A stretch of DNA of 64,000 bases from the NCBI RefSeq assembly GCF_002007205.1, contig NZ_LAZS01000011.1:186001-250000 (forward strand), given 5' to 3'. The notes under the pieces are model-generated. The model was given only the letters and a program-made list of their open reading frames with translations, ran no database searches and was not told the origin of the DNA. How positions within the stretch are numbered: position 1 is the stretch's first letter; every line of letters begins with the position of its first letter. This DNA comes from Ensifer adhaerens (GTDB taxonomy: Bacteria > Pseudomonadota > Alphaproteobacteria > Rhizobiales > Rhizobiaceae). Positions 12,082-29,057 of this stretch are shown here, piece by piece. The position numbers were made by a program, and so were the translations under genes.

Positions 12082-12115
12082 TGCAAATCCTTGGGAGTTT
12101 GGCCTGAAGACCAGG

Positions 12116-12907
12116 TCACTCTATTTCTATGTGGTCCTGCGCCTTCCGCACCAGTGACCATCCGACGGCATTCGTCGCCAGAGCCCACAGAGCCAAATAA
12201 CTTACATCCCAATATGTTGGAACCTCAGCACCAAAAAAACCACCTCTGAACATCTCGTTTGCATGCACCATTGGCGACAATAACACGATATGCCGCGCTG
12301 TTTCTGGCAGCCAGCTAACCATGTAGAACGCACCTGTGAGCGGCAGCAACAAATACATGATTGGCTGTACGAACCGCTCGAGCGTGTCCGACAGTTCTGT
12401 CAGGCACGAGATCGTCAGCGCCACGCCGAAAGTCAGAGCGCACATAAGGAACCATGCCGTCAGCAGGACGAGGTAATCATCGATGGGGGTAATATACTCC
12501 AGCAGCCGCAGAGGAACATAGGCGACAAAGAACGCAATCAGGGTGCCAATACACTCCAACAAGCCACGCGCGATCAAAATATCGATCGGCCGCACCGTCC
12601 TATGAAACAGAAGACCCGAGTTGTGGCGGAAGCAATGGGTGAATCTGGCAACCATGTGTCGCCACACGGTGAGCATGCTGTACCCGGTCAATACCAGTGG
12701 TATAACCTTAACACCGTGGTTCTCTTCTCCGTAGATAAAGGACCACGCTATCATCACGCCTAAGGTCAATATAAGAGGCTCGCCGACAAGCCACATAAAG
12801 CCGATATTGCCATGGCCAAATCGCTGCATGAGTTCGCGGATGAGTAGAGCGTTTATCGTGCGCCGCTTCCAGCGGATCTTGGCAATCGCCATATCAAGTT
12901 GAGCCAT
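12116..12907 (-). CDS. kpsM: Capsular polysaccharide ABC exporter, permease subunit
   Basis: KpsM-type ABC-2 permease that, as a dimer with KpsT, translocates polysaccharide through the inner membrane. About six hydrophobic segments are visible, including LILTLGVMIAWSFIY, ECIGTLIAFFVAYVPL and MYLLLPLTGAFYMVSWLP, and the N-terminal RTINALLIRELMQRFG is characteristic. ATG 12907 is preferred, with AGGG upstream, over a TTG two codons earlier. It sits between two KpsE-like genes, six to twelve bases after one and 34 before the other. Confidence 0.92.
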   Translation of the reverse strand: MAQLDMAIAKIRWKRRTINALLIRELMQRFGHGNIGFMWLVGEPLILTLGVMIAWSFIYGEENHGVKVIPLVLTGYSMLTVWRHMVARFTHCFRHNSGLLFHRTVRPIDILIARGLLECIGTLIAFFVAYVPLRLLEYITPIDDYLVLLTAWFLMCALTFGVALTISCLTELSDTLERFVQPIMYLLLPLTGAFYMVSWLPETARHIVLLSPMVHANEMFRGGFFGAEVPTYWDVSYLALWALATNAVGWSLVRKAQDHIEIE

Positions 12908-12919
12908 GTGCAAACGCCC

Positions 12920-14098
12920 TCAGTGAATATTCAAATGCTCGCGGCTCCCGGAAACCAGCAGATAGACCATGACGAAACATGAGAAAGAGAGAAGTGCAAC
13001 GGTGAATATATAGCGTATTCTCTTCGGCTCTTCAGACTTATCGGGCATGTTCGGGCGAACGACAGCCTCAAGATATACTTGCTTTCGGTTAGCCTCTTGA
13101 CGCGCTTGCTCTGTCGAATTGACGGCAGCTTCATATTCTTTTTCTGCAAGCGAGCGCCGCAACGACAGCTCTTCGTATCGCCCCACCTTGTTCGCCAGAG
13201 CCCCATCGGAGCCAGCGACCTTACCTTGCTCCAGCTCAAGTTGCTTCCGCAGCGACTTGACCCTACTTTCAAGCTCAATAATGCTTGGGCTGTCCTTAGC
13301 CGCGTCCTTAGCGAGCCGCAATGCGACTTCCTTCTCGGCCAATTCAGCAGACAAACCCGTTATTACTTCAAAGCTGCCCGTGGCATCCAAAGTCGGGTTG
13401 AGAATAACTTCCGAGTTCCTGAATGCGGTCAATTCACGCTGCGCTGACAACAATTGCGCTTCGGCCAGGCCAATCGTTTCCTTCGCCGACTGCAAAGCAT
13501 CCTGTCGCGCGCGCCTATTCATCGCATTGACCTTCTCCTCACTTAGTTTCAGGAGTTCGTCCGCGATAGTCTTAGCGTCTTCAGGGCGATACGCCGATAC
13601 GTATAAGGTCGTTATCCCAGTCTCAATATCCTCTTCGAGGACTACCTGATCTTGATAATACTTGTAGAACCCCTCAAAGCTATCGCCGTCAAAAAAGGAA
13701 CTGTACCTTGTGAGGAAATCGGCCTCGGGCCTCACATACGCCCCAATCACATCAATTTTTTCCTGCAAGCCTTTTAGAGCATCGCGGGAAACGATGTACG
13801 CCTGGATGGCAAATGCATCTTCGCTGGCTCGCGATATCCCGAACGTTCGCAGCAGCGCGGAAAGTCCACCAACTTGGTTTCCGTTCAGTCCACGGACAAT
13901 GAATTTCGCTTCGGATACGTAACGGTCAGAGGCGATAAGCCCGTAATACGCCAAGGACCACGCAGTAGGGACCGCGAAGATGAAAAAGAAAAGCGTGGCG
14001 GCGTAATGCTCTGACAGCAGACGCCGCCAACCACCGCGAAGCAACGTCTTCCACCAGGGCGAGTTATCTTTATAGGTGATGTAAGCCTGCTCGCGCAC
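12920..14098 (-). CDS. kpsE: Capsule export inner-membrane/periplasmic protein, KpsE/CtrB-like (copy 1)
   Basis: A second KpsE/CtrB-type co-polymerase of 392 aa. It has an N-terminal membrane segment (YAATLFFFIFAVPTAWSLAYY, about 30-50), a periplasmic part with FAIQAYIVSRDAL and coiled coil, the RPNMPDKSEEPKRIRYIF linker and a C-terminal membrane segment (FTVALLSFSCFVMVYLLV). It starts with GTG behind GGAAGG. Having two such proteins in one KpsMT operon is uncommon. They may form a hetero-oligomer, or one may set chain length; neither can be decided from sequence. Confidence 0.87.
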   Translation of the reverse strand: MREQAYITYKDNSPWWKTLLRGGWRRLLSEHYAATLFFFIFAVPTAWSLAYYGLIASDRYVSEAKFIVRGLNGNQVGGLSALLRTFGISRASEDAFAIQAYIVSRDALKGLQEKIDVIGAYVRPEADFLTRYSSFFDGDSFEGFYKYYQDQVVLEEDIETGITTLYVSAYRPEDAKTIADELLKLSEEKVNAMNRRARQDALQSAKETIGLAEAQLLSAQRELTAFRNSEVILNPTLDATGSFEVITGLSAELAEKEVALRLAKDAAKDSPSIIELESRVKSLRKQLELEQGKVAGSDGALANKVGRYEELSLRRSLAEKEYEAAVNSTEQARQEANRKQVYLEAVVRPNMPDKSEEPKRIRYIFTVALLSFSCFVMVYLLVSGSREHLNIH

Positions 14099-14152
14099 GA
14101 TCGAAGTGCCTTCCTTATTTTGCCATTGCGATCGTACTGGGAAGGACCGAGC

Positions 14153-15130
14153 TCAACAGTCTGAGCTTTCGCGTTCCAGGAAGCGATACGTTGCGGCGAC
14201 ACCATCTCTGACAGAGGTAGCCGGTACCGGGCATCCTGCCGCTGCGGCTTTCGTCATCGACGCTTCGGTAAGATATTGATAGCGTCCCTTTAGGGTCTCA
14301 GGCATATCGACAAACTCTATGCTTGGCTCTCGGCCAATCGCAGCAAACATTGCGTGCGCCACGTCCAACCACGTTGCCGCAACGCCGGTTCCAACATTGT
14401 AGATGTCGCTTTTGAAGTCGTTCTCCAACATCCAGAGAATCATGCGAACACAATCGCCAACGTAAACGAAGTCGCGCTTTTGCTCTCCATCCTTGAAATC
14501 AGGCCGCTTCGACTTGAATAACCGTAAGGGCGCACCCCCCAAGAGTTTTTCATAGTTGCTGAATGGAACGGACCGCATGCTCCCTTTGTGCCCCTCTCGG
14601 GGCCCATAAACATTAAAGAACTTCAAGCCAGCCCATTTTGGAGGAGTAGGCTCATTTCGAGCAACGATGCCTAACACTTGCCGGTCAAAGGCTAATTTGC
14701 TCCATCCGTATGGGTTCAGTGGGCGCAGGCTCGCCTGGTAGTCCCAATCGCTACGATCCAGAAAACCGAGTGCTCCATCGCCATAGGTCGCGGCCGAAGA
14801 CGCGTATATGAACGGAATGGCCTTCAGAGTTGCTAAATCCCACAAGAATCGGCTGAGTTTGAGATTGTTCAAGACGATCCGGTCTACGTCTCGTTCCGTG
14901 GTAGCGCTAATTGCTCCCATGTGAACAATTGCCGTTATCGAATCGCCCCGCCGTCTCAACCATTCGGGCAAATCTTCGGGAAACACGAAGTCTTCAACAG
15001 AAGCGTGCCGGATGTTTTTCCATTTGTCATCAGCTCCAAACCAGTCGCAGATCGCAACCGCGCTGCGTCCGCTGAGAGCCTCAACTACATTGGAGCCGAT
15101 GAAACCTGCCCCGCCGGTAACTAGTATCAT
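14153..15130 (-). CDS. hldD: ADP-L-glycero-D-manno-heptose 6-epimerase
   Basis: HldD (RfaD/GmhD) epimerises ADP-D-glycero- to ADP-L-glycero-D-manno-heptose, the last step of heptose activation. It starts [19 protein letters not shown] and carries HMGAISATTERD, the Ser111/Ser112 region YASSAATYGDG and the catalytic Y141GWSK145. FNVYGPREGHKGSM is highly diagnostic of HldD. Length (325 aa) is typical. It lies 27 bases after hldE and 54 before the first kpsE-like gene, so heptose supply and export are in one transcript. Confidence 0.95.
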   Translation of the reverse strand: MILVTGGAGFIGSNVVEALSGRSAVAICDWFGADDKWKNIRHASVEDFVFPEDLPEWLRRRGDSITAIVHMGAISATTERDVDRIVLNNLKLSRFLWDLATLKAIPFIYASSAATYGDGALGFLDRSDWDYQASLRPLNPYGWSKLAFDRQVLGIVARNEPTPPKWAGLKFFNVYGPREGHKGSMRSVPFSNYEKLLGGAPLRLFKSKRPDFKDGEQKRDFVYVGDCVRMILWMLENDFKSDIYNVGTGVAATWLDVAHAMFAAIGREPSIEFVDMPETLKGRYQYLTEASMTKAAAAGCPVPATSVRDGVAATYRFLERESSDC

Positions 15131-15157
15131 TTAGTACAACCTTAGTTCTTCAAGGGT

Positions 15158-16627
15158 TCAGGCTACGCGGTCGGACACACCAAATTTGATTCGCTCGACT
15201 GCGCGGGTCGTTGAGAGGCCCGGCACCAACTCAATTAGATGTACCCGACCGCCGTCGGCTTTCACAACATCACCGCCGACAACCCGGTCTTCCGTATAGT
15301 CGGCCCCCTTGAAGAGGTCCGTGGGTCGTAGCGCTTGGATCAGGCTCAGGGGCGTGTCCTCCTCAAAAATCACGACCATGTCAACATCCTGCATTGCAGC
15401 CAGGACCGCGGCGCGCGATTCTGCGGGTTGAATCGGCCGCTGCGGCCCTTTAAGGCGCGAAACGGAAGCATCGCTGTTCAACCCTACGACCAGCCGGTCG
15501 CATTTCTCCGCCGCTCGTCGCAGCAATTCTATGTGCCCCGCATGGACGATGTCGAAGCAACCATTCGTGAAGCCTACAGATAGGCCTTCCTGCTTCCAAC
15601 TCGCCACTTGCCCTTTGGCCGTTGTGACATCGCACACAGCTTCGATGAGCGGCTCATTGATTCTGTTAAGCTCTCTGTTGAGTTCCTCCGGCGACAAGAC
15701 AGCCGTTCCCAGCTTGCGGACGACAGCGCCAGCTGCGGCATTGGCCAAGAACATTGCCTGCTCCATCGTATAGCGGACCGCTAGCGCAGAACAAAAGACC
15801 GCAAGCGCCGTGTCTCCTGCACCCGACACGTCAAACACCTCCGTCGTCGTTGCATGGGAGTGAACGGCAGGCTTCCCTTTCTCATAGAGAACCATCCCGA
15901 GTTCCGACATCGTCAGCAAGATTTCTGCACCGGTGATTGACGAAACATGCCGAGCTGCGTTCTCCCATTCCTCCATCGTCGCACACTGCGTACTGGTTGC
16001 CGCTGCAAGCTCCGAGCGATTGGGCTTGATGACGGTCACGCCTTCGTAAGCCGAAAAATCCCTCCGCTTCGGATCGACAATAACAGGGATAGAGAGTTCT
16101 CGGCATCGGTCGATGATGTGCCGCAGGACAACATCATGGACAGCACCCTTTGCATAGTCCGACAACGCGACAACCTGGTAATCACCCACGACCCGGTCGA
16201 ACGCGTCGACGATCTGCCTCGTAGTAGACTCGTCAAACGGATGCGAGTCTTCCTCGTCGCATCGCAATAATTGCTGGCTGCCACTAACAAAACGAGTTTT
16301 CGTAGTCGTTCGTCGGGTTGGATCAATTATCAATTCGCCCTTGCAACGCGGAGTCGCTGTAAGCAGCGCCTTGCACTCACCCCCAGCGGTATCGTCACCG
16401 ACGACACTGATAAGGCAGCTCACGCCACCAAGTGCCGCAATATTCGCAACCACATTACCTGCGCCACCGAGCATCGATAACTCGCGTTTTGCTAGCAGAA
16501 CAGGAACCGGCGCCTCGGGTGAGATGCGAGAAACAGATCCGTAGTGAAAGCGATCAAGCATCAAATCGCCAACGACCAGAACTGCGGCACCGCGGAAATC
16601 GGTATGACGCATGTTGCGTGCGAACAT
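15158..16627 (-). CDS. hldE: Bifunctional heptose-7-phosphate kinase / heptose-1-phosphate adenylyltransferase
   Basis: HldE (RfaE) phosphorylates D-glycero-D-manno-heptose-7-phosphate at C1 and later adenylylates the 1-phosphate. Residues 1-320 form a ribokinase-like domain with GGAGNVVANIAALGG and the catalytic GAGDT (269-273). Residues 340-489 form a nucleotidyltransferase domain with FTNGCFDIVHAGH (353-365) and the late LSTTRAVERI. Both domains look intact. AGGA precedes the ATG. Together with hldD and the GmhB-like gene it gives every ADP-heptose step except the GmhA isomerase. Confidence 0.95.
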   Translation of the reverse strand: MFARNMRHTDFRGAAVLVVGDLMLDRFHYGSVSRISPEAPVPVLLAKRELSMLGGAGNVVANIAALGGVSCLISVVGDDTAGGECKALLTATPRCKGELIIDPTRRTTTKTRFVSGSQQLLRCDEEDSHPFDESTTRQIVDAFDRVVGDYQVVALSDYAKGAVHDVVLRHIIDRCRELSIPVIVDPKRRDFSAYEGVTVIKPNRSELAAATSTQCATMEEWENAARHVSSITGAEILLTMSELGMVLYEKGKPAVHSHATTTEVFDVSGAGDTALAVFCSALAVRYTMEQAMFLANAAAGAVVRKLGTAVLSPEELNRELNRINEPLIEAVCDVTTAKGQVASWKQEGLSVGFTNGCFDIVHAGHIELLRRAAEKCDRLVVGLNSDASVSRLKGPQRPIQPAESRAAVLAAMQDVDMVVIFEEDTPLSLIQALRPTDLFKGADYTEDRVVGGDVVKADGGRVHLIELVPGLSTTRAVERIKFGVSDRVA

Positions 16628-16686
16628 AAGTAAATCCTACTTGTCAGCGTTAAGGCCCAAATCTTCAGCTTCGGGCCTGCGAGATC

Positions 16687-17868
16687 TCACCATGGAGCGC
16701 CAGAGAAAATGTGACGCCCAGCGCGATGCCGCGTCACCTCTGTAAACGCAAACGCCAGGTGATAGAAGGTGGATGCTGGAATGTGGTCGACCTTTGCCGA
16801 GAAATCAGCCGCGCAGATGTGATCCAACCAAAGCCCTGGTGGGACAGACACGCCCCTAACGTTGTCCGGGCCGAGGAAGAACGAAAAAATACGTTCTATA
16901 GCCTCGTCAAGTTTATCAGCGGCGAAGCGACTGTCGCTTGGGTACGTTTCACTCATAGCAATCATAGCCTTTACATACTCGAGGTTGGGCCATGAGCGAA
17001 AGTCTGCTTTAAGGCAACGCCCGGATGGATCGACGGCATCGTAGATCAAGCCGCTCGACGTATCGAAGCCGTGTTCTCTTCCGAACCAGAATAGCCTCTC
17101 CGCGACATGCAACGCGGATTTTTCCCCCATCAGTGCCGAGTAACGTGTGAGGAGCCAGCACCATTCGAAATGATGACCAGGTTCCACAACGATCGGATCG
17201 GAGCCAGCGGCACGGCTCCAGTCGTCCCCATAATACTCAGCGAGGGTTTCCGTTTGTGGATCAAAAAAGTCACTCACCGCGAGTTCAAAGATCTCTCTCG
17301 CAAGCGCATAAAATAGCTCCCGCCCGCTGAATGCGGCCAGAAAGATTGCCGCTTCCAATAGATGCATATGGGGATTTTGTTGATATGGGGCGCGAGCGTG
17401 TTCGCGATGGAGAAAACCTCGTCCCGATGGATGGCCAAGTTGACGGCGAACGGAACGCAGCGTGTCCTCAGCAACGGAGAGGGCACTCTCTTCGCCGGTC
17501 AACTTATACCACCAAGCCAGCGCGAAGAGCACGAATGCAAGATCGTAAAGATCAGTTGTCGTGTCCAGCGGATCTCCTCGAGTCGTTAACCGAGAAGCAA
17601 ATTCGCCGGACCCCAATCTAGCCTTCGTCAGGAGGAACTCCATACCGTGTTCGGCAGCTCGAACAGCTTCTTTCGAACCACCAAGACCAAGATGGGAGAA
17701 AGCGTAGATTTGCCGCGCTGTGACCCGCAGGCGCTTAAAGCCCGGATCCAATGGGCGCCCTTCCCAATCCAGCCTCTCTGTAAATCCGCCATTCGACCAG
17801 TCAGTTCCGTCGGCAAGCATGCGCGGAATAGAGTGGTCGGCCAACCAGGTCGAGATTTTTACATGCAT
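16687..17868 (-). CDS. AGE-family sugar epimerase/isomerase
   Basis: This protein belongs to the N-acylglucosamine 2-epimerase/cellobiose epimerase superfamily, an (alpha/alpha)6 barrel acting on hexoses, hexosamines or sugar phosphates. It shows WSNGGFTERLDWEGRP near the start, RQIYAFSHLG, GGFLHRE-like GRGFLHREHA, NPHMHLLEAAI, VEPGHHFEWCWLL and a late HIPASTFYHLAFAF, the histidines expected in the active site. ATG 17868 with GGTGGG upstream is preferred over GTG 17904. It is the first gene of the capsule/heptose operon, 59 bases ahead of hldE. It may supply a mannose-type precursor; a role in place of GmhA is only a guess. Confidence 0.82.
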   Translation of the reverse strand: MHVKISTWLADHSIPRMLADGTDWSNGGFTERLDWEGRPLDPGFKRLRVTARQIYAFSHLGLGGSKEAVRAAEHGMEFLLTKARLGSGEFASRLTTRGDPLDTTTDLYDLAFVLFALAWWYKLTGEESALSVAEDTLRSVRRQLGHPSGRGFLHREHARAPYQQNPHMHLLEAAIFLAAFSGRELFYALAREIFELAVSDFFDPQTETLAEYYGDDWSRAAGSDPIVVEPGHHFEWCWLLTRYSALMGEKSALHVAERLFWFGREHGFDTSSGLIYDAVDPSGRCLKADFRSWPNLEYVKAMIAMSETYPSDSRFAADKLDEAIERIFSFFLGPDNVRGVSVPPGLWLDHICAADFSAKVDHIPASTFYHLAFAFTEVTRHRAGRHIFSGAPW

Positions 17869-18492
17869 CCTGAACCCACCGGGAAATCTGATCACAAACT
17901 GCACTCAACAGCCGGGAGTTGCTCGCAACTTCGCTAGGCACGGCACGCAAGCCTCACCAGATGAAAAGAGACAACGGCCTTTAGTTGTCAAATTCCTGAG
18001 CGCCGTCAAGCGTTCAAAGCTGGAATTTCGTCGAGAGAATGGCGCTGCAAGCATCTATCCTGCGTGGTCGTCGCGTGTCATCCTTGCATCCGCCACGCAA
18101 GATAAAGTCTCGAAATGATGTTGCGCGCCATTTCCCCAGCGGCAAAAAAGCCGTCCAGCGACTAATTTCAAGCCATTTCGGTCGTACCAAACGAACTCCA
18201 GATTTTGGTGGGCTCGTGTATCGAACTCATCCACGAGTACAATGCGCAAAAGTATGCGCTGCCTTGGGCTGCGCGGCCGACGATCTAGGAGACGGATTAG
18301 GACGCGGCGGCCCGCAAACACACGTCCCTAGGGGTACTTGAACTGTTCGTGCGAACGTCCAGCCATCGCGCATAATCCTCCGCCAGCCAGACCCGGCTCG
18401 CCTTTCGCAGCTCTATAGTAAGCGCAGAAGTAACGCGCAGAAAATTGGCAACCAGTCGACGCGGCACCAGTACCTACCTCGCACGCATCTCT
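17869..18492. other. Long intergenic region upstream of the capsule operon
   Basis: About 620 bases without a gene I can support. It should contain the promoter of the minus-strand capsule operon and the 3' end of the sterol-desaturase-like gene's transcript. A minus-strand open frame of 88 codons (18055-18321) exists but has no ribosome-binding site or recognisable domain; it could be a decayed gene. The region is also the boundary between the polysaccharide island and the moc locus. Confidence 0.4.
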
Positions 18493-19371
18493 TCAATCAG
18501 CCGCCGACTGCTCCGCCACACCCGCGACTCCGCCCACCTTTCGCAGCTTCACCCCCTTCACCTCCCCCTCAAACGTCTCCACGCGCCGATCATAGTTCGG
18601 CGCGACCGTGCCCATCACGCGATCCCAGAACGAGAAATAGTTCGCGTAGTTGTATTTGAACTCGGCGTGGTGCTGGTCGTGATAGGTGGTGCAGAGGAGC
18701 GGCGACGGATAGCGCGCGGTGCGCGAGGCGAAATATTCGAAGCCGGCGTGGCCGAAGGTGCCGTTGATCTGGTCGAACAGCCGGTGCGCCAGGAGGATGA
18801 TCGGCGGGAACGGCACGAGAAAAGTGATGACGGCGTAGTAGCCCTGGCACATGGCCGTATCCACCAGGCCGATCGAATCGTTGCTCCAGACTGTCGGCGC
18901 GACGCTGCGGTGGTGCAGCAGATGGTATTTGTAGAAGAACTTGGTGTGCAGCAGCCGATGGGCGAAGTAGAACCAGGCGTCGAACAGCACCATGCAGAGT
19001 AAGAAGAGCGGCACGGCCGTCCACCAGCTGAAGTTCCAGGGCGAGAACAGGGTCCACCCCTTGTACTGAACAAAGAGACCGATTGCGACCGCGGTGCAGG
19101 TGACGAGGATCGAGGCCATGCTCTGGCGGATCTCGATGGCCTTGCGCTTCTCGCCGCGCCGGCCCTTCTGAATGCGGCGCTCGGGATTGCGGTCGTTGAG
19201 CCAGGTGATGCCGTAGCCCAGGATGAAGTACAGCGCCACCGTCGACGCATAAATCGCGGCCAGCAAGCCGACAAAGGTGAGACTGTCCTGAAGAAGGGCG
19301 CTCAAATCGTGATCCGTCGCGGAGAGAAAAGTTGAATTGCCGCGTGGACTATACCAACCGCCCTCTCCCAC
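18493..19371 (-). CDS. Sterol desaturase / fatty acid hydroxylase family membrane protein
   Basis: An integral membrane di-iron oxygenase of the ERG3/C-4 sterol methyl oxidase superfamily. Histidine boxes are HRLLH (138-142), HLLHH (150-154) and, near the C-terminus, HDQHH; hydrophobic segments lie at about 30-55, 85-105 and 115-137. The substrate is unknown. GTG 19371 begins the open frame but lacks a clear ribosome-binding site; a TTG at 19305 is an alternative. It lies 15 bases after the PanB-like gene, so it is probably the last gene of the moc operon, unless a promoter lies inside its 5' end. Confidence 0.8.
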   Translation of the reverse strand: MGEGGWYSPRGNSTFLSATDHDLSALLQDSLTFVGLLAAIYASTVALYFILGYGITWLNDRNPERRIQKGRRGEKRKAIEIRQSMASILVTCTAVAIGLFVQYKGWTLFSPWNFSWWTAVPLFLLCMVLFDAWFYFAHRLLHTKFFYKYHLLHHRSVAPTVWSNDSIGLVDTAMCQGYYAVITFLVPFPPIILLAHRLFDQINGTFGHAGFEYFASRTARYPSPLLCTTYHDQHHAEFKYNYANYFSFWDRVMGTVAPNYDRRVETFEGEVKGVKLRKVGGVAGVAEQSAAD

Positions 19372-19386: not shown

Positions 19387-20184
19387 CTAGGCGCGCTCAA
19401 GCTCGGTCAGAAATGCGCTCAGTTCCGTTTCATCGATACCGACAAGATGCCGCTGCTGAGGATAGGCGCCAGACCGGACATCCGCTGCAAACTCCGAAAA
19501 CGCGGCGGTCCGCTCGCGCTGAAGCCTGTCATGTTCGGCGGCAAAGTTTCGATAGATCTTGGCATGGCGCGGCACGTGACCGCGATTGCTGCCGAGCACG
19601 TCAGCTGCGAACAGATATTGGGCGTCGCAGCCTGCCCCCGCCCCCATCGAGAGCATCAGCATTGATGTTCTGGCGCTGATCGCCGCTGCGACGTCGCCGG
19701 GCACGACCTCGATCTCGGCCGCAAAGGCGCCGGCCTCCTCCAGCGCCTTGACCTGCCGCCAGATCTCGAACGCACTTTGCGCGGTCTTGCCGACCGCGCG
19801 AAAACCGCCGGTCCAGGTGGCCTTTGAGGGGATGAGGCCGACATGACCGCAGACGGGAATGCCCTCCTCCCGCATCCGCCGGACGGTGGAAAGCCCGGCG
19901 GCGCAATAGACCGCGTCGCCGCCGGCCTTCAGCGCCTTGAAGGCCGCGCGCATATACTCCTCGGCGGTGACGTAGTCGCCATATTCGAGACCAGGAAAGG
20001 CAAAGCAGGTCGGCGCCACCTCGCGAAACTCAGGCCCCAGGAGCGCCGGCGGAACGGAAACGAGATCGATGCCGGCTGTTTCCGCCGCTTCGGCTTCATC
20101 GAGCGTCTCGACCCGCAGCATGGTGAGCTGGCGCTTGCCCTTCATCGACAAGAGGTCGGCAACGGTCGGGCGGTGGCTTTTCAT
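19387..20184 (-). CDS. PanB-like protein (ketopantoate hydroxymethyltransferase family) with altered active site
   Basis: The 265-aa protein aligns along its length with PanB, which transfers a hydroxymethyl group from methylene-tetrahydrofolate to ketoisovalerate. Kept features are CGHVGLIPS (His114, equivalent to E. coli His136), EIEVVPGDV (Glu159, E. coli Glu181) and GHVPRHAKIYRNF. By my alignment the magnesium ligands Asp45 and Asp84 are replaced by Pro/Val (LVSVPPALLG) and Gly65, and Lys112/Glu114 by Tyr93 and Ala95. It is therefore unlikely to be an ordinary PanB. GGAG precedes the ATG. It follows mocF by 48 bases, suggesting a role in rhizopine or one-carbon metabolism; this is inference. 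Confidence 0.8.
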   Translation of the reverse strand: MKSHRPTVADLLSMKGKRQLTMLRVETLDEAEAAETAGIDLVSVPPALLGPEFREVAPTCFAFPGLEYGDYVTAEEYMRAAFKALKAGGDAVYCAAGLSTVRRMREEGIPVCGHVGLIPSKATWTGGFRAVGKTAQSAFEIWRQVKALEEAGAFAAEIEVVPGDVAAAISARTSMLMLSMGAGAGCDAQYLFAADVLGSNRGHVPRHAKIYRNFAAEHDRLQRERTAAFSEFAADVRSGAYPQQRHLVGIDETELSAFLTELERA

Positions 20185-20232: not shown

Positions 20233-21459
20233 CTAGGCCGCGAGAAGCGCCTTGAGCTTGGTTTCGGGCGAGACAAGCGCCTGCGGATCCGGTCGCTTGC
20301 CGGCGGCAATCAACATTTCGGCGAGGCGAATGTCGCGCGCCACGGCGTTGCCCGGGCCGATGCCTGACGCAGACAGCAGGCGGCCGCTATCGTCGAGATG
20401 GAAGAGGATGAACGCGCCGTCGGAAAGATCGCGCCGCACCGTCGTCGAAGCACCGTCGGCGAGCCCGGCGATCTGCAGCGTCAGGTCATACTGATCGGAC
20501 CAGAACCACGGCACGCTCGTGATCGCTTCGCCAGCGCCGAGCAGATTGCCGGCGACGAGCGTTCCCTGATCCTGCGCGTTGCGCCACGCCTCCAGCCGTA
20601 TCCGGCGATCGCCATAGTGACAGAGCGGGAATGAGCAGCAATCGCCGGCGGCATAGATATCCGGGTCGCTCGTTTGCAGCGTGGCGTCGACGGCGATGCC
20701 GTTCTCGATCGAAAGGCCGGCGGCTGCCGCCAGTTCGGTGTTCGGGACCGCGCCGATGCCAACGACGACGAGGTCGGCTTCTACGGTCTCATCGCCGGCA
20801 AGGGCGATACGTGCGCTTCGGTCGTCTGCGTCGATGCGGTCGATCTTCGCGCTGCAACGGATGTCGACGCCTTCCGCACGGTGCCGCTCGGCAACGACTG
20901 CGGCAATGTCCTCAGGCACACCGCGCGAAAGGATGCGTGTGAGCCCCTCGATCAGGATAACGGTCGCACCGAGCCGGCGCGCCGTTGCGGCGAGCTCGAG
21001 ACCGATGAATCCCCCACCGATGATTGCCAGCTTGCGCTCCGGTGCGAGTTCGCGGCGAATCTCTTCAGCGTCGGCATGTGTTCTGAGCGTGCGAATGCGC
21101 CGCGGCGCGTCGCCGGTCCCCGCGATCGTTCGGGCCCGGGCGCCGGTCGTCAGCAACAGCCGGTCATAGGCGATGGCGCTTCCGTCTGCGAGCGTCACGC
21201 GCTTTTCGGCGCGATCGATAGACGTGACCGGCGCATCCGTCAGCACCTCGATCCCAGCGGCCGCATAGCGCTCGGCATCGGCGACGTGTTTCGGCGGAAG
21301 CTGCGCCTTGAGGCCATCCTTCGAAAGGGGCGGCCGCTCGTATGGCAGATGCGGTTCCGCGCCAATCAGCTTGATCCTGCCGTCATATCCCTTTTCCCTG
21401 AGAGCAAATGCGGCCCTTGCACCACATTCGCCAGCGCCCACGATGACGATGCACCCCAT
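20233..21459 (-). CDS. mocF: Ferredoxin reductase (rhizopine catabolism)
   Basis: An FAD/NAD(P)H-dependent ferredoxin reductase that passes electrons to the Rieske ferredoxin MocE for the oxygenase MocD. It begins MGCIVIVGAGECGARAAFAL (FAD loop at 7-12), then PYERPPLSK, LLLTTGARAR, a second nucleotide loop IIGGGFIGLELAATARRLGA, and IYAAGDCCSFP. C-terminal WFWSDQYDLTLQIAG is typical of oxygenase-coupled reductases. ATG 21459 is chosen for its strong GGAGG; 19 further codons open upstream are not needed. Gene order mocD-mocE-mocF matches the rhizopine demethylation genes described in Rhizobium leguminosarum. Confidence 0.88.
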   Translation of the reverse strand: MGCIVIVGAGECGARAAFALREKGYDGRIKLIGAEPHLPYERPPLSKDGLKAQLPPKHVADAERYAAAGIEVLTDAPVTSIDRAEKRVTLADGSAIAYDRLLLTTGARARTIAGTGDAPRRIRTLRTHADAEEIRRELAPERKLAIIGGGFIGLELAATARRLGATVILIEGLTRILSRGVPEDIAAVVAERHRAEGVDIRCSAKIDRIDADDRSARIALAGDETVEADLVVVGIGAVPNTELAAAAGLSIENGIAVDATLQTSDPDIYAAGDCCSFPLCHYGDRRIRLEAWRNAQDQGTLVAGNLLGAGEAITSVPWFWSDQYDLTLQIAGLADGASTTVRRDLSDGAFILFHLDDSGRLLSASGIGPGNAVARDIRLAEMLIAAGKRPDPQALVSPETKLKALLAA

Positions 21460-21508
21460 CTCAACCTCCTTGCCCGCCGCGGCGAGCCCAATCCTATCGA
21501 AAACGGCT

Positions 21509-21826
21509 TCAGCCAAGGGCGATGAACACGCTTCCGGCCTCGACCTTCACCGGATAGGTCTTCAGGTTGACGCAGACGGGAGCGCCCTTGGCCTGGCCAG
21601 TCTTGTAGTTGAAGCGGCCGTTGTGCTTCGGACATTCGATGATGTCGTCCATCACGAGGCCATCGGCGAGATGAATGTGCTCGTGCGTGCAGAGCCCGTC
21701 GGTCGCGAAATATTCGTCGTCGGGGCTGCGGTAGACCGCGAAAGTGCGTCCGCCATGATCAAAACGGATGACGTCTTCCTCATCGATTTCGTCCGCGGCG
21801 CAGACTTCGATCCAGTTTCCGCTCAT
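21509..21826 (-). CDS. mocE: Rieske-type [2Fe-2S] ferredoxin (rhizopine catabolism)
   Basis: A 105-aa soluble Rieske ferredoxin carrying electrons from MocF to MocD. The cluster motifs are C46-T-H48 and C65-P-K-H68, that is CXH-X16-CXXH, in TDGLCTHEHIHLADG and IIECPKHNGRFNYKTG. GGAGGA lies before ATG 21826. The gene is in a different position from a long spurious frame that covers it. It starts 29 bases after mocD ends and stops 49 before mocF begins. Confidence 0.92.
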   Translation of the reverse strand: MSGNWIEVCAADEIDEEDVIRFDHGGRTFAVYRSPDDEYFATDGLCTHEHIHLADGLVMDDIIECPKHNGRFNYKTGQAKGAPVCVNLKTYPVKVEAGSVFIALG

Positions 21827-21855: not shown

Positions 21856-22947
21856 TTACTCGGCCGCGTGCACGATCGCATCGCTGTGAAATTCTTCCCG
21901 GTAGGGCTTTGCCGTCGCCGGCAGCTCGCGTCTCAGGAAATAGTCTTCGTTGCGCAGCTGCCGCAGAAAGGCCGGGATCATTTCGCGATAGCCGTGCAGC
22001 ATCGACGGGTTCGGCGCCGGCAGGTCGTGTTTGATCATGGCGTGCAGCTTCGGCAGCGCGTGGTAGGGCACCATCGGGAACATGTGATGCTCCACATGGT
22101 AGTTCATGTTCCAGTAGACGAAGCGGCTGACCGGGTTCATGTAGACCGTGCGGCTGTTCAGCCGATGGTCCGTCACGTTGTCGGCAAGACCGCCATGCTG
22201 CAGCAGCCCGGTCAGTACATGATGCCAGGCACCATAGAGCCGGGGCAGGCCGATCAGCATCAATGGCAGGATCGAGCCGAGATAGAAGCAGGCGGCAATG
22301 GTCGCCGCATAGATCGCAAACCAGATGCGGGCGACGAGGATCGCCTTCGGCTGCTCCATTTCGGGGATGAAGGTCGCCTCCTCGGCGCTGATGATGCCGA
22401 ACGTATTGCGCACCATGTCGATCATCGCGTGCCAGACATCGAGCACGCCGAAGAAATTGAGAACGAGGCGCAGAAGATCCGGCGGCCGCATGACGGCGAT
22501 CTCGGGATCCCGACCGACGATCACCGTATCCGTATGGTGGCGGGTGTGGCTCCAGCGCCAGGTGACGGGATTGCGCATGATCATGAAGCAGGCGATCTGG
22601 TAGACGGCGTCGTTCATCCACATCGTCTTGAACGCCGTGCCGTGGCCGCATTCGTGCCAGCGGCTGTCGGAGGCCGAACCGTAGAGAACGCCATAGGCGA
22701 GGAAGAACGGAACCGCCCACCAGGTGCCCCAGAACGTGATGCCGAGTGCGCCGAACAGAACGAGACAGCCGAGCCAGATCGCGGTGTCGCGGATAGCCGG
22801 TCCATCCTCGCGCTTCATCAGTTCCTTCATCTGCTTGCGCGGAATGTCGGTGTGATACCACTCCGCAGCCGAGAGGCCGTTGGCGACGGCCGCCTGCGCA
22901 TCTCGGCCAAGCAGGCTGTAGTCTCGCTTCGTCGGCGTCATCGTCAT
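21856..22947 (-). CDS. mocD: Membrane di-iron oxygenase, fatty-acid-desaturase family (rhizopine demethylation)
   Basis: MocD-type hydrocarbon oxygenase/desaturase in the inner membrane. In rhizobia mocDEF are needed to convert 3-O-methyl-scyllo-inosamine to scyllo-inosamine, presumably by O-demethylation. Three histidine boxes are intact: HECGH (98-102), HTRHH (134-138) and HVEHH (284-288). Hydrophobic segments lie at about 55-90 and 210-245. ATG 22947 has GGGGAGGAG upstream; codons before it to 23004 lack support. First gene of the operon, divergent from the LacI regulator across a 164-base shared promoter region. Confidence 0.88.
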   Translation of the reverse strand: MTMTPTKRDYSLLGRDAQAAVANGLSAAEWYHTDIPRKQMKELMKREDGPAIRDTAIWLGCLVLFGALGITFWGTWWAVPFFLAYGVLYGSASDSRWHECGHGTAFKTMWMNDAVYQIACFMIMRNPVTWRWSHTRHHTDTVIVGRDPEIAVMRPPDLLRLVLNFFGVLDVWHAMIDMVRNTFGIISAEEATFIPEMEQPKAILVARIWFAIYAATIAACFYLGSILPLMLIGLPRLYGAWHHVLTGLLQHGGLADNVTDHRLNSRTVYMNPVSRFVYWNMNYHVEHHMFPMVPYHALPKLHAMIKHDLPAPNPSMLHGYREMIPAFLRQLRNEDYFLRRELPATAKPYREEFHSDAIVHAAE

Positions 22948-23111
22948 TTGCGCTCCTCCCCACGGTCCGACCCGATCTGGCCGGCGACGTCTCATCTCGT
23001 GCAATGACGATAGGTTGACTTTTGCCAGGTCTCAATGCAGCAATGATATATTCTCTCAAATGATATCATCCAGCGCATTTCATCTGTGATGCAAACCTAT
23101 CAGGAGACGCG
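22948..23111. promoter_or_regulatory. Divergent mocD / lacI-type regulator promoter region
   Basis: The region separates two divergent genes and is AT-rich at 23040-23070. It contains the 10-bp palindrome ATGATATCAT at 23060-23069 and a related ATGATAT copy at 23043. The TGGAAT-N5-TTCC element found before mocC and mocB is absent here, so regulation of mocDEF may use a different site. Exact -10/-35 boxes were not assigned. Confidence 0.5.
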
Positions 23112-24143
23112 ATGAGCAACCGCCCGACCATTGCCGACCTTGCGCGCACCGCCGGCGTCAGCGTCGCGACCGTCGATCGCGTGCTGAACGGCCGCCATCC
23201 CGTGCGGGAGGAAACCGCGCGCCGGGTCTATGAGGCGGCCAAGGCGATCGGCTATCACGCCGTCGGCCTGATCCGGCAGCGCGTCTTCGAGGACCTGCCG
23301 CAATACAGGCTTGGGTTCGTGCTGCAGAAGCCGGAGCAGGCCTTCTATCAAACGGTCGCGAAGGAAATCGACAACGCCGCGCTGTCGCTGTCGCATGCCC
23401 GCGTCTTCGCCCAGGTCGACTTCGTCGCAAACTCCACTCCATCGGCGATCACGGAAAAGCTTCGAGCCGCCGCAGCACGCAACCAGGCCATCGCGCTCGT
23501 CGCTCCCGATTATCCGGCAGTGACCACCGCGATCGAAGAACTCAAGGAACGCGGCATCCCCGTCTTCTCGCTGCTTTCGGACTTTGCTGCGGGGGTCCGC
23601 GAAGGCTATGTCGGCCTCAACAACCACAAGGTCGGCCGCACGGCGGCGTGGATGATCACGAAAGCGGCCAAGCGCCCCGGCAAGGTCGCGGCCTTCGTCG
23701 GCAGCCATCGCTTTCTCGGCCACGAGCTTCGAGAGATCGGCTTCCGTTCCTATTTTCGCGAGCATGCGCCCGATTTCGAAGTGCTGGACACCATGGTCAA
23801 CCTCGACACGGCCGAGATTACCCATGAAGCGACACTCAACCTGCTGCAGCGCCATCCGGATCTGATCGGCTTCTACGTCTGCGGCGGCGGCATGGAAGGT
23901 GCGATCTCGGCAATCCGGGAAGAAAAGCTCGAAGGCAAGCTCATCGCCGTCGTCAACGAGTTGACGGCGGATTCCCGGGCGGCCCTTGGCGACGACGTCG
24001 TGACCCTGGCGATATCGACGCCGACCGCCGCGCTCGCGCGCGAAACGATCAACCTGATGATCCAGGCGATCGACAAGGGTCCGACCGGCGCCCCGGGGCA
24101 AACCTTCCTTCCGTTCGACCTCTTCACGCCGGAAAATATCTAG
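23112..24143 (+). CDS. LacI-family transcriptional regulator
   Basis: A 343-aa LacI/PurR-type regulator with an N-terminal helix-turn-helix (PTIADLARTAGVSVATVDRVLNG, residues 4-27 in part), the hinge region and a periplasmic-binding-protein-like ligand domain. That domain shows GLNNHKVGRTAAWMI, FVGSHRFLGHELREIGFRSYF and GFYVCGGGMEGA, like sugar- and inositol-sensing relatives. AGGAG precedes ATG 23112. Placed between mocD and mocC, it probably senses rhizopine or a product of it and binds the palindromes at 24253-24288 and 25202-25217. Classical rhizopine loci use a GntR-type MocR, so this is a different arrangement. Confidence 0.9.
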   Translation: MSNRPTIADLARTAGVSVATVDRVLNGRHPVREETARRVYEAAKAIGYHAVGLIRQRVFEDLPQYRLGFVLQKPEQAFYQTVAKEIDNAALSLSHARVFAQVDFVANSTPSAITEKLRAAAARNQAIALVAPDYPAVTTAIEELKERGIPVFSLLSDFAAGVREGYVGLNNHKVGRTAAWMITKAAKRPGKVAAFVGSHRFLGHELREIGFRSYFREHAPDFEVLDTMVNLDTAEITHEATLNLLQRHPDLIGFYVCGGGMEGAISAIREEKLEGKLIAVVNELTADSRAALGDDVVTLAISTPTAALARETINLMIQAIDKGPTGAPGQTFLPFDLFTPENI

Positions 24144-24288: not shown

Positions 24289-24318
24289 TTGACCCATCCC
24301 ACTGGAGGAGACATTCCC

Positions 24319-25131
24319 GTGACCGCCCTGCCCTTCGCTCTCAACCACATGACGACGCCAAGCCTGCCGCTTGGCGCTTTTTTCGAACTCGCCAGATCGC
24401 TCGGCATGTCCTCCGTCGAAATTCGCAACGATCTTGATAACAACGCGATTCTCGATGGCACGCCGGCAATGGATGTCGCCGCGCTCGCCGGCCGTTACGA
24501 CATCACGATCATCTCGATCAATGCCTTGCAACGTTTCAACGAATGGAACGAGCGCCGGCAGGCCGAAGCCGAAGAACTGATCGCCTATGCACGCGACTGC
24601 GGCGCCATGGCCCTTGTCCTCGTTCCCGTCAATGACAGCTCGGGCCAGGCCGATGGCGAACGCCAGGCAAATCTTCGCAAGGCTCTGACGGCACTGAAAC
24701 CGATGCTCGAAAAGGCCGGAATCATCGGCCTCGTCGAACCGCTCGGCTTCGAGATCTGCTCGCTGCGCTCGAAGACGGAAGCCGTTGACGCAATCAAGGC
24801 AGTCGACGGCGAAAAGACCTTCCGCCTGGTGCACGACACGTTCCACCACCACCTCGCCGGCGAACTCGAAATCTATCCTGAGATGACCGGCCTCATCCAC
24901 ATTTCCGGCGTCACCGATGAACGCGTTGCCGTGACGGACCTGCGCGATTCGCACCGCGTGCTTGTCGATCAGGCCGATCTGCTCGACAACGTCGGACAGA
25001 TCCGGCGCCTGCGTGCAGCGGGCTATGCAGGCCCGCTTTCCTTCGAGCCATTCGCCGCCGAAGTTCACGAATTGGCGGATCCCGCCACCGCCGTCAGGCA
25101 GAGCGTGGACTACATTCAAATCCACATCTGA
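24319..25131 (+). CDS. mocC: Sugar phosphate isomerase/epimerase family, MocC-like (rhizopine catabolism)
   Basis: A TIM-barrel protein of the AP-endonuclease-2/xylose isomerase superfamily related to MocC and IolH. Segments such as FALNHMTTPSLPLGAFFELAR, ITIISINALQRFNEW, GLVEPLGFEICSLRSK, FRLVHDTFHHHLAGE and SFEPFAAEV supply the Glu/Asp/His metal ligands expected of the fold. In rhizopine pathways MocC acts on the inosamine or inosose intermediate; the exact reaction is not settled. GTG 24319 behind GGAGGAG is the start; the open frame from TTG 24289 begins inside the operator's edge. Confidence 0.82.
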   Translation: MTALPFALNHMTTPSLPLGAFFELARSLGMSSVEIRNDLDNNAILDGTPAMDVAALAGRYDITIISINALQRFNEWNERRQAEAEELIAYARDCGAMALVLVPVNDSSGQADGERQANLRKALTALKPMLEKAGIIGLVEPLGFEICSLRSKTEAVDAIKAVDGEKTFRLVHDTFHHHLAGELEIYPEMTGLIHISGVTDERVAVTDLRDSHRVLVDQADLLDNVGQIRRLRAAGYAGPLSFEPFAAEVHELADPATAVRQSVDYIQIHI

Positions 25132-25360: not shown

Positions 25361-26290
25361 ATGAAGAAATTCGTGCTCAGCACAGCGCTGGCGATGATGA
25401 TGTCGACGGCGGCCCATGCCGAGACCATCGGCGTATCCATGGCCCTTTTCGACGACAACTTCCTGACGGTCTTGCGCAACGGCATGTCCGACTACGCCAA
25501 GACGCTCGACGGCGTCGAACTGCAGATCGAAGACGCGCAGAACGACGTTTCGAAGCAGCAGAGCCAGATCCAGAACTTCATCGCCGCCGGTGTAACCGCC
25601 ATTATCGTCAACCCGGTCGATACCGATGCGACGGCAGCCATGTCGAAGATCGCCGCAGACGCCGGCATACCGCTTGTCTACGTCAACCGCGAGCCGGTCA
25701 ACGTCGACACGCTGCCGGAAAAGCAGGCTTTCGTCGCGTCGAACGAGCAGGAATCCGGCACGCTGCAGACGCAGGAAATCTGCAAGATGCTCGGTGGCAA
25801 GGGCAAGGCCGTCGTCATGATGGGCGAACTCTCCAACCAGGCCGCCCGCATGCGCACCAAGGATATCCACGACGTGCTTGCGACCGACCAGTGCAAAGGC
25901 ATCGAGATCGTCGAGGAGCAGACCGCCAATTGGTCGCGCACGCAAGGCTCGGACCTGCTGACGAACTGGCTATCGGCCGGTCTTGAGTTCGATGCCGTCA
26001 TCTCCAACAACGACGAAATGGCGATCGGCGCCATCCAGGCGCTGAAGGCCGCGGGCCGTTCGATGGACTCCGTCGTCATCGGCGGTATCGACGCGACGCA
26101 GGACGCGCTTGCGGCCATGGCTGCGGGCGACCTCGACGTGACCGTGTTCCAGAACGCCGCCGGCCAGGGCAAGGGCTCGGTCGATGCAGCACTCAAGCTC
26201 GCCAAGGGCGAACCGGTCGACAAGAAGGTCTATATTCCCTTCGAACTGGTGACCAAAGACAACCTCGACAAGTACCAGGCGAAGAACTGA
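25361..26290 (+). CDS. mocB: Rhizopine/inositol-type periplasmic binding protein
   Basis: A type I periplasmic sugar-binding protein of 309 aa delivering substrate to the ABC importer encoded downstream. A Sec signal peptide (MKKFVLSTALAMMMSTAAHA) is followed by ETIGVSMALFDDNFLT. NPVDTDATAAMSKIAADAGIPLVYVNREPV, AVISNNDEMAIGAIQALKAAG and VIGGIDATQDAL are standard family segments. ATG 25361 has GGAGGAG upstream and is the only start giving a signal peptide. MocB of S. meliloti binds rhizopine; the neighbours here make the same ligand likely, though inositol is an alternative. Confidence 0.88.
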   Translation: MKKFVLSTALAMMMSTAAHAETIGVSMALFDDNFLTVLRNGMSDYAKTLDGVELQIEDAQNDVSKQQSQIQNFIAAGVTAIIVNPVDTDATAAMSKIAADAGIPLVYVNREPVNVDTLPEKQAFVASNEQESGTLQTQEICKMLGGKGKAVVMMGELSNQAARMRTKDIHDVLATDQCKGIEIVEEQTANWSRTQGSDLLTNWLSAGLEFDAVISNNDEMAIGAIQALKAAGRSMDSVVIGGIDATQDALAAMAAGDLDVTVFQNAAGQGKGSVDAALKLAKGEPVDKKVYIPFELVTKDNLDKYQAKN

Positions 26291-26455: not shown

Positions 26456-27997
<1,542 letters not shown>

Positions 27998-28031
27998 GCG
28001 AAGAGCCACCCGACGAAAGGGAGGAATGAAA

Positions 28032-29057
28032 ATGGACACCAATATCGCTGCACAGGGAGCGGGCACGCAGCTTTCCGGCGCCAAGCGCCGCCTGCCCCCC
28101 GAATTCAACATCTTCCTGGTGCTGATCGGCATCGCGCTTGTCTATGAGGTGCTGGGCTGGATCTTCGTCGGCCAGAGCTTTTTGATGAACCCGCAGCGCC
28201 TGACGATCATGATCCTGCAGGTTTCGGTGATCGGCATCATCGCCGTCGGCGTCACCCAGGTCATCATCACCGGCGGCATCGACCTCTCCTCGGGCTCCGT
28301 CGTCGGCATGACGGCGATGATCTCGGCGAGCGTCGCCCAGGCCTCCACCTGGCCGCGCGCACTCTATCCGTCACTCACCGACATGCCGGCGATCGTCCCG
28401 ATCGGGCTTGGTATCGGCATCGGCCTGCTCGCCGGCTTCATCAACGGCCAATTGATCGCCCGCACGAAGATCCCGCCCTTCATCGCCACGCTCGGCATGA
28501 TGGTGTCGGCGCGCGGCATCTCCAAGTGGTACACCAAGGGGCAGCCGGTTTCCGGTCTTACCGACCAATTCAACTTCATCGGTACCGGCATCTGGCCCGT
28601 GGTCGTCTTCCTGGTGGTCGCGCTGATATTCCACATCGCGCTGCGCTACACCCGCTATGGCAAGTTCACCTATGCGATCGGCGCCAACGTCCAGGCCGCC
28701 CGCGTCTCAGGTATCAACGTCGAAGCGCACCTGATCAAGGTCTACGCGATCGCCGGCATGCTCGCTGGCCTTGCCGGCGTCGTCACGGCCGCCCGCGCCC
28801 AGACCGCACAGGCTGGCATGGGCGTGATGTACGAACTGGACGCGATCGCCGCGACCGTCATCGGCGGAACCTCGCTGACGGGTGGCGTCGGCCGGGTCAC
28901 CGGCACGGTCATCGGCACCATTATCCTCGGCGTGATGACCTCGGGCTTCACCTTCCTTCGGGTCGACGCCTACTACCAGGAAATCGTCAAGGGCCTGATC
29001 ATCGTCGCTGCCGTCGTCATCGACGTCTATCGACAGAAGAACCGCAAGAAGGCCTGA
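28032..29057 (+). CDS. Sugar ABC importer permease (RbsC family)
   Basis: An inner-membrane permease of the ribose/inositol type with about eight to ten hydrophobic segments. VGVTQVIITGGIDLSSGSVVG, ARTKIPPFIATLGMM and TVIGGTSLTGGVGRVTGTVIG are hallmark segments of RbsC-like proteins. ATG 28032 is seven bases after GGAGG and is preferred to ATG 28026, which is too close. It is the last gene of the moc uptake unit and is followed by a strong terminator. Confidence 0.92.
   Translation: MDTNIAAQGAGTQLSGAKRRLPPEFNIFLVLIGIALVYEVLGWIFVGQSFLMNPQRLTIMILQVSVIGIIAVGVTQVIITGGIDLSSGSVVGMTAMISASVAQASTWPRALYPSLTDMPAIVPIGLGIGIGLLAGFINGQLIARTKIPPFIATLGMMVSARGISKWYTKGQPVSGLTDQFNFIGTGIWPVVVFLVVALIFHIALRYTRYGKFTYAIGANVQAARVSGINVEAHLIKVYAIAGMLAGLAGVVTAARAQTAQAGMGVMYELDAIAATVIGGTSLTGGVGRVTGTVIGTIILGVMTSGFTFLRVDAYYQEIVKGLIIVAAVVIDVYRQKNRKKA

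Follow-up and report, generated by a model that had tools for sequence, protein, structure and literature searches.

A PanB-like clade with an exchanged active site keeps company with oxygenases in Ensifer adhaerens and its relatives and may pass one-carbon units to tetrahydrofolate

What does a second PanB-like protein do directly behind a set of mocDEF-like oxygenase genes? The question is raised by a gene of Ensifer adhaerens that lies in a stretch of 64,000 nucleotides of contig NZ_LAZS01000011.1, here called the window, and whose product is here called PanB2. As a sequence-only reading of this DNA had pointed out, the gene follows the mocDEF-like genes on the same strand; the distance of 48 bases from the stop of the mocF-like gene to the PanB2 start, both on the minus strand, is exact in the list of open reading frames. 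The genes around it are collected in Table 1. Their mocDEF-like identity was assigned by Pfam, motif and orthologue annotation, the R. etli orthologue of the MocE-like gene being annotated 'MocE family 2Fe-2S type ferredoxin'. In S. meliloti, LacI, mocD, mocE and mocF are a co-expressed neighbour group (PMC11387232). The FA_hydroxylase gene is directly downstream of PanB2, an arrangement found in only 10 of 112 loci, those of the Ensifer group (L033-L042). Still farther downstream, past the PanB2 cluster, positions 10876-17904 of the minus strand hold genes that by eye resemble those of polysaccharide export and of heptose-type sugars: KpsE/KpsM-like, HldD/HldE-like and epimerase-like. A palindrome-like stretch, AAATGATATCATCC, with the core TGATATCA, was seen in the gap between the MocD and LacI genes (22948-23111). 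The guess that this core is a LacI operator was rejected, as it is missing from all 85 divergent regions tested in relatives.

Table 1. Features of the window around the PanB2 gene
Feature	Position in the window	Strand	Basis and remarks
FA_hydroxylase (sterol-desaturase superfamily)	18493..19371, start uncertain	-	Pfam PF04116; His boxes HRLLH, HLLHH, HDQHH
PanB2 (PanB-like, without Mg-binding aspartates)	19387..20184	-	265 aa, ATG start
MocF-like ferredoxin reductase	20233..21465, start approximate	-	Pfam Pyr_redox_2 and Reductase_C
MocE-like Rieske [2Fe-2S] ferredoxin	21509..21826, start approximate	-	CTH...CPKH motif, by sequence
MocD-like membrane diiron oxygenase	21856..22947, start approximate	-	Pfam PF00487 (FA_desaturase); His boxes HECGH, HTRHH, HVEHH
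LacI-family regulator, divergent	23112..24143	+	Pfam; conserved beside MocD
Xylose-isomerase-like TIM-barrel protein	24289..25131	+	Pfam AP_endonuc_2
Sugar-type ABC substrate-binding protein, not of the rhizopine-binding family	25361..26290	+	Pfam, NCBIfam
Sugar-type ABC ATPase, RbsA/MglA-like	26456..27997	+	Pfam, NCBIfam
Sugar-type ABC permease, RbsC-like by position and by eye	28026..29057	+	Open reading frame; synteny conserved

The window protein passed Pfam PF02548 (140.8 bits, gathering score 28.7), with a match limited to residues 66-243, and failed the NCBIfam panB equivalog TIGR00222 (107.4 bits, cut-off 207.55). A canonical panB is present on another contig of the same genome (343.6 bits versus 133.7 for the window gene). 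Since dN/dS is low against three Ensifer-group orthologues (about 0.04/0.39, 0.04/0.69 and 0.07/1.27, a ratio of about 0.06 to 0.11), the gene is not decaying, and a pseudogene was ruled out. The best of five AlphaFold models had a pLDDT of 81.4 and a pTM of 0.81, with low confidence at residues 117-127 and 202-211; the five models spanned pLDDT 45.8 to 81.4. When the model was searched with Foldseek, the top 28 PDB matches were all PanB chains. The predicted structure and these matches support a retained TIM-barrel PanB fold and back the earlier proposal that it is preserved over the full length. Methylisocitrate lyase and oxaloacetate decarboxylase were among the weaker matches and, as such chemistry occurs in the superfamily, would suit a folate-free, substrate-specific lyase or isomerase with a PEP-mutase/isocitrate-lyase-like fold, acting on an oxygenated sugar or cyclitol. 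Both of these enzymes also require a metal, which counts against this alternative; the genes nearby, taken up below, bear on it as well.

The columns of the active site were assigned by MAFFT (126 PanB2 sequences, loci fetched later being left out) and by profile-profile hhalign (probability 100, residues 4-249), with E. coli PanB as the reference. The two methods concur that the window protein has P46, G65, Y93 and A95 in place of Asp45, Asp84, Lys112 and Glu114, that its H114 and E159 correspond to His136 and Glu181, and hence that neither metal-binding aspartate (Asp45, Asp84) is present. What had been claimed by eye, the absence of the former four residues and the retention of the latter two, is thus confirmed column by column. 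About 20 residues behind the Asp45 position are deleted relative to E. coli PanB. In the AlphaFold model Tyr93 lies in strand 92-95, His114 in strand 111-115 and Glu159 directly behind strand 155-158.

A wider count covered 73 PanB2 and 14 canonical sequences, with the loci fetched later included and rows of 320 aa or more excluded. PanB2 has in common with PanB (EC 2.1.2.11; PF02548, TIGR00222) the fold and the residues His136, Glu181 and Asp209, which were found in 73/73 PanB2 and 14/14 canonical sequences (the first two also in 126/126 PanB2 of the MAFFT set). Unlike PanB, it lacks Asp84, Lys112 and Glu114 (0/73 versus 14/14) and Asp45 (D in 2/73, in a column adjoining a gappy loop, versus 14/14), carries the deletion behind the Asp45 position and has a longer C-terminus. 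Glu157, Phe192 and His207 are invariant in PanB2 (73/73) and Trp124 nearly so (72/73), all four being absent from the 14 canonical sequences; Arg225 is present in 72/73 PanB2. With the canonical set absent and other invariants present, one set of residues has therefore been swapped for another throughout the clade. To our knowledge no folate-contact residues of PanB have been described, so the use of folate is unreadable from the PanB2 sequence.

PanB2 is a real, widespread, neofunctionalised PanB clade. In a tree of 86 rows, which took in 15 of the 80 close loci, 73 PanB2 split from 13 canonical sequences with support of 100/100, the program warning of long branches. Eleven of twelve genomes tested had a canonical match of at least 255 bits alongside PanB2 matches of 101-137 bits, and the twelfth, a fragmented assembly, had PanB2 only. 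Of 385 alphaproteobacterial genomes sampled, own genome counted, 26 gave matches at E <= 1e-28, the weakest of which may be canonical PanB. Among these 26 are some of 1.4 Mb, in which PanB2 directly adjoins a MocD-like gene and the stretches concerned have 30-32% G+C; by their size and base composition these may be Pelagibacter-like bacteria. One alphaproteobacterial genome of 1.6 Mb (G458; L206, L207, L208) carries four PanB2, two of them in tandem, with MocD, FA_hydroxylase and PhyH as partners. At 80% or more, PanB2 was matched by 207 of 649 plasmid records.

A second panB of R. etli has been the subject of a paper said to be by Villasenor and colleagues. This gene, RHE_PE00443 on plasmid p42e, keeps 5 of 12 active-site residues and its metal domain was not detectable; an R. 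etli panB mutant stayed auxotrophic despite it, and constitutive expression of RHE_PE00443 did not complement the mutant, data not shown in the paper (PMC3082293). At positions 488817-489632 of p42e there is a hydroxymethyltransferase gene whose product shares 80.6% identity with the window protein and which sits in the same LacI-MocD-MocE-MocF-PanB2 cluster. Because plasmid, product, length (270 versus 271 aa) and place agree, this gene is very probably RHE_PE00443 and hence the orthologue of the window gene. That the site is dismantled and that the gene cannot stand in for panB had therefore been published before (PMC3082293). The passages of that paper on RHE_PE00443 offer no function or gene-neighbourhood explanation (PMC3082293), and a search of the open-licence PubMed Central literature found no function for PanB2; besides that paper, searches aimed at this gene turned up only a co-expression list (PMC11387232) and PMC7770189.

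Could PanB2 nevertheless be a redundant pantothenate enzyme, as the databases name it? That name is on 58 of the 60 rows listed, among 135 matching records, and a vitamin-synthesis gene name is on 66 of 100 rows listed, the remaining 34 carrying no gene name. Against it stand the missing metal ligands, the score below the TIGR00222 cut-off, the canonical panB that co-occurs in 11 of the 12 genomes tested and in the own genome, and the very probable orthologue that does not complement (PMC3082293). The redundant enzyme was rejected on the equivalog score, the co-existing canonical panB and this non-complementation; we give it next to no credence, and the name is almost certainly wrong. Canonical residues lost throughout the clade, other invariants that have arisen and the non-complementing probable orthologue argue instead for a reaction other than ketopantoate synthesis, in agreement with the new reaction that had been suggested from the window alone.

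The same reading had placed the gene in a rhizopine operon, and the role of mocDEF is reportedly the O-demethylation of rhizopine, as Bahar is said to have described in 1998. The published moc genes are mocDEF, mocR, mocBA and mocC (PMC10107442). With these the window shares the mocDEF-like oxygenase, ferredoxin and reductase; it differs in that a LacI regulator replaces MocR and the binding protein is of another family. The sugar-binding protein of the window scored 45.5 bits against the rhizopine-binding family NF052284 (cut-off 420), and the best score in the whole genome was 315.4. A Pfam scan of PanB2 and seven neighbours found the LacI regulator, no GFO/IDH/MocA dehydrogenase and one AP_endonuc_2 protein, which could be MocC-like. 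The cut-off was exceeded in 7 of 297 Rhizobiaceae genomes, and the 12-18 kb around these seven loci contained neither PanB2 nor any MocD or MocE match scoring over 60 bits. One of the seven had a MocF match, 34% identical, and one of the seven genomes (G155) had MocD 36 kb off on the same contig without an adjoining PanB2. R. pisi DSM 30132, tried as a true rhizopine source, had no locus above the cut-off, and of 415 plasmid records a single one contained a match of at least 80% to a rhizopine-type binding protein. The score of the binding protein, the LacI-type regulator and the seven true loci without PanB2 argue against a rhizopine locus, and this part of the earlier reading is not supported.

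The neighbourhoods of 139 PanB2 loci (81 close, 58 distant; one contig was entered twice, as L200 and L252, so that 138 are distinct) and of 13 canonical panB loci were surveyed by tblastn at 1e-6 within 5 kb. MocD, FA_hydroxylase, PhyH or TauD was found near 118/139 PanB2, that is 80/81 close and 38/58 distant loci, and near 1/13 canonical panB (a weak PhyH match), rates that are descriptive and not a blind test because the queries were picked once the neighbourhoods had been seen. For the distant set versus the canonical one, Fisher p = 0.0003. TauD occurred only alongside one of the other three (2 loci). L120 was scored as oxygenase-bearing on a weak FA_hydroxylase match (59 bits), and four loci with an oxygenase beyond 5 kb were scored as having none (PhyH at 6.0 kb in L121, L134 and L136; FA_hydroxylase at 5.1 kb in L128). 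The idea that PanB2 always neighbours mocDEF very nearly held for close relatives, with MocD within 5 kb in 80/81, and failed for distant ones (28/58), where another oxygenase family or none was found. Along the tree, partner type switched a minimum of 8 times with rows lacking an oxygenase omitted and 14 times with those rows, L121, L134, L136 and L128 being labelled by their more distant oxygenase and mixed loci as MocD.

These changes bear on a non-catalytic PanB2, a structural or regulatory subunit of the oxygenase. The loss of the canonical metal and lysine residues and the presence of MocD near 80 of the 81 close relatives are what such a subunit might show, but PanB2 accompanies different oxygenase families, keeps His136 and Glu181 in 73/73 sequences and has new polar invariants (Glu157 and His207 in 73/73, Arg225 in 72/73). 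We consider this reading very improbable.

PurU, the formyl-THF deformylase, was within 5 kb of PanB2 in 24/139 loci, mostly directly downstream, and in 0/13 canonical loci, its presence or absence switching at least 9 times along the tree. In the distant set it was present in 5 of 58 loci versus about 0.2 (0.19) expected by chance if the loci are taken as independent and each genome as having two PurU, the own genome's number; the corresponding probability of 1.6e-6 is too strong because the loci are related, and against the 13 canonical controls the excess was not significant (Fisher p = 0.58). The identity of PurU was confirmed on one copy (L128; TIGR00655, 331.8 versus 285.95 bits). FolD was found behind PurU in 4/139 PanB2 and 0/13 canonical loci, and the order MocD-E-F-PanB2-PurU-FolD recurs in L277. 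Beside the window PanB2 there is neither PurU nor FolD, and two PurU lie elsewhere in the genome. In 24 Rhizobium loci NAD-synthesis genes (named from the R. etli annotation) are downstream of PanB2 instead. No match to E. coli frmA (345 aa part) or frmB at 40% identity or more was found near PanB2 loci. YcaO and TfuA lie a few kb from PanB2 in L163 (3814-6302) and about 7-9 kb off in R. etli p42e (L257, 9869-11871), a nearness that is probably coincidence.

GFO/IDH/MocA dehydrogenases and TIM-barrel isomerase-like proteins neighbour PanB2 in several loci, as the folate-free lyase or isomerase introduced above might be expected to. That enzyme would leave the recurrent company of PurU unexplained, and a single active site is conserved despite varying partner oxygenases; we regard it as improbable.

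PanB2 and the oxygenase also occur apart. No oxygenase was found within 5 kb of 20 of the 58 distant PanB2 loci. In one PanB2 clade, 6 of 7 rows (L209, L211-L215) have no recognised oxygenase nearby and the seventh, L216, has PhyH; the PanB2 of the six have Met, Gln and Ser in the former Lys112, Glu114 and Asp84 columns. Two neighbours of L209 were scanned, with no Pfam matches. Conversely, 20 MocD loci were fetched as having no known PanB2: it proved absent from the 10-15 kb retrieved in 18 of them and present in 2. At E <= 1e-28, PanB2 was absent from 10 of these 20 genomes, elsewhere in 8 (one partial) and beside MocD in 2. Within a single genus, L264, L265 and L266 are closely syntenic, and of these only L265 carries PanB2, placed between the MocD gene and one for a dehydrogenase. 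PanB2 is dispensable to MocD, and since syntenic oxygenase operons exist with and without it we read it as an accessory handler of a by-product, not as an obligatory step on the substrate. No C1 gene substituting for PanB2 behind MocD was found in the 18 PanB2-less loci (10-15 kb each). In six of these 18, which come from other classes of the phylum (L270-L272, L274-L276), mocDEF is followed by a conserved TIM-barrel isomerase-like gene of about 280 aa, whose product gave a weak Pfam match or none in three scanned; it is perhaps the 'xylA2' reported beside P. syringae mocDEF (PMC5132102).

What by-product, then, might PanB2 handle? We tentatively propose, at a little short of an even chance, that PanB2 is a neofunctionalised clade that hands the one-carbon unit of the nearby oxygenase to tetrahydrofolate (THF). 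The sugar/cyclitol-type ABC transporter would import an O-methylated substrate, our favoured guess being an O-methyl inositol (pinitol or ononitol). MocF and MocE would feed electrons to the diiron oxygenase MocD, which would hydroxylate the O-methyl group, and the resulting hemiacetal would break down, releasing formaldehyde and leaving the free polyol. PanB2, with the His136/Glu181 half of the site and without the Mg-keto-acid site, might then join formaldehyde (or a hydroxymethyl group) and THF to 5,10-methylene-THF, which could be assimilated, or oxidised to formate by FolD and PurU where present. The demethylation, the substrate, the use of folate and the reaction we infer from sequence and gene company. 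By its gene context (oxygenases in 118/139 loci, PurU in 24, FolD in 4) the one-carbon role is the best-supported reading of PanB2; of the earlier idea that PanB2 handles the one-carbon unit of MocD demethylation, it is this role that stands, and the rhizopine setting that lacks support.

A retro-aldol reaction would stay nearest to PanB chemistry: the oxygenase would make a CH2OH next to a carbonyl from a C-methyl (or other) group, and PanB2 would run the PanB reaction in reverse on the substrate, releasing formaldehyde or methylene-THF. His136, Glu181 and Asp209 in all 73 PanB2 and the PurU/FolD neighbours fit this C-demethylation. The Mg site that activates the keto acid is gone (Asp84, Lys112 and Glu114 in 0/73), however, syntenic operons without PanB2 would be odd for an obligatory substrate step, and the role of mocDEF is, reportedly, O-demethylation of rhizopine. 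We think it unlikely.

Published observations bear on the proposed transfer to THF. Left to itself, the condensation of formaldehyde with THF proceeds too slowly in vivo, and PanB has been considered as a possible promiscuous catalyst of it (PMC7073904). As deletion of panB and ltaE in E. coli left formaldehyde-dependent growth unchanged (PMC7073904), canonical PanB shows no sign of such an activity. E. coli PanB accepts free formaldehyde as an aldol acceptor (PMC10127515). As for the substrate, mocDEF-like genes of R. mesoamericanum were induced 1.5- to 2.1-fold by Mimosa root exudate, of which pinitol was the most concentrated component; the authors considered rhizopine (PMC5789663). Pinitol and ononitol are present in legume nodules (PMC8730688).

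The proposal can be taken further, to a version that we hold to be possible and rather doubtful: PanB2 may be the folate counterpart of Fae, a dedicated catalyst for formaldehyde and THF that arose by removal of the keto-acid/Mg site of PanB, and may serve throughout Alphaproteobacteria, those with small (1.4-1.6 Mb), A+T-rich genomes among them, as an all-purpose plug-in behind several non-haem iron oxygenase families. The folds of Fae and of THF-linked demethylation enzymes, of which sarcosine oxidase is an example, are unrelated to that of PanB2. The likeness to Fae, the H4MPT-linked formaldehyde-activating enzyme (PMC7073904), and to those demethylation enzymes is one of proposed logic, the fixing of formaldehyde onto a pterin carrier; PanB2 would use THF, Fae H4MPT. 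Should PanB2 load formaldehyde onto folate, it would fill a published gap, at the point where an uncharacterised enzyme was not excluded (PMC7073904), and would be a new part for synthetic methylotrophy. The 'rhizopine' mocDEF-like genes would then be a module of broad use that demethylates methylated cyclitols or sugars, compounds that are plentiful in legumes.
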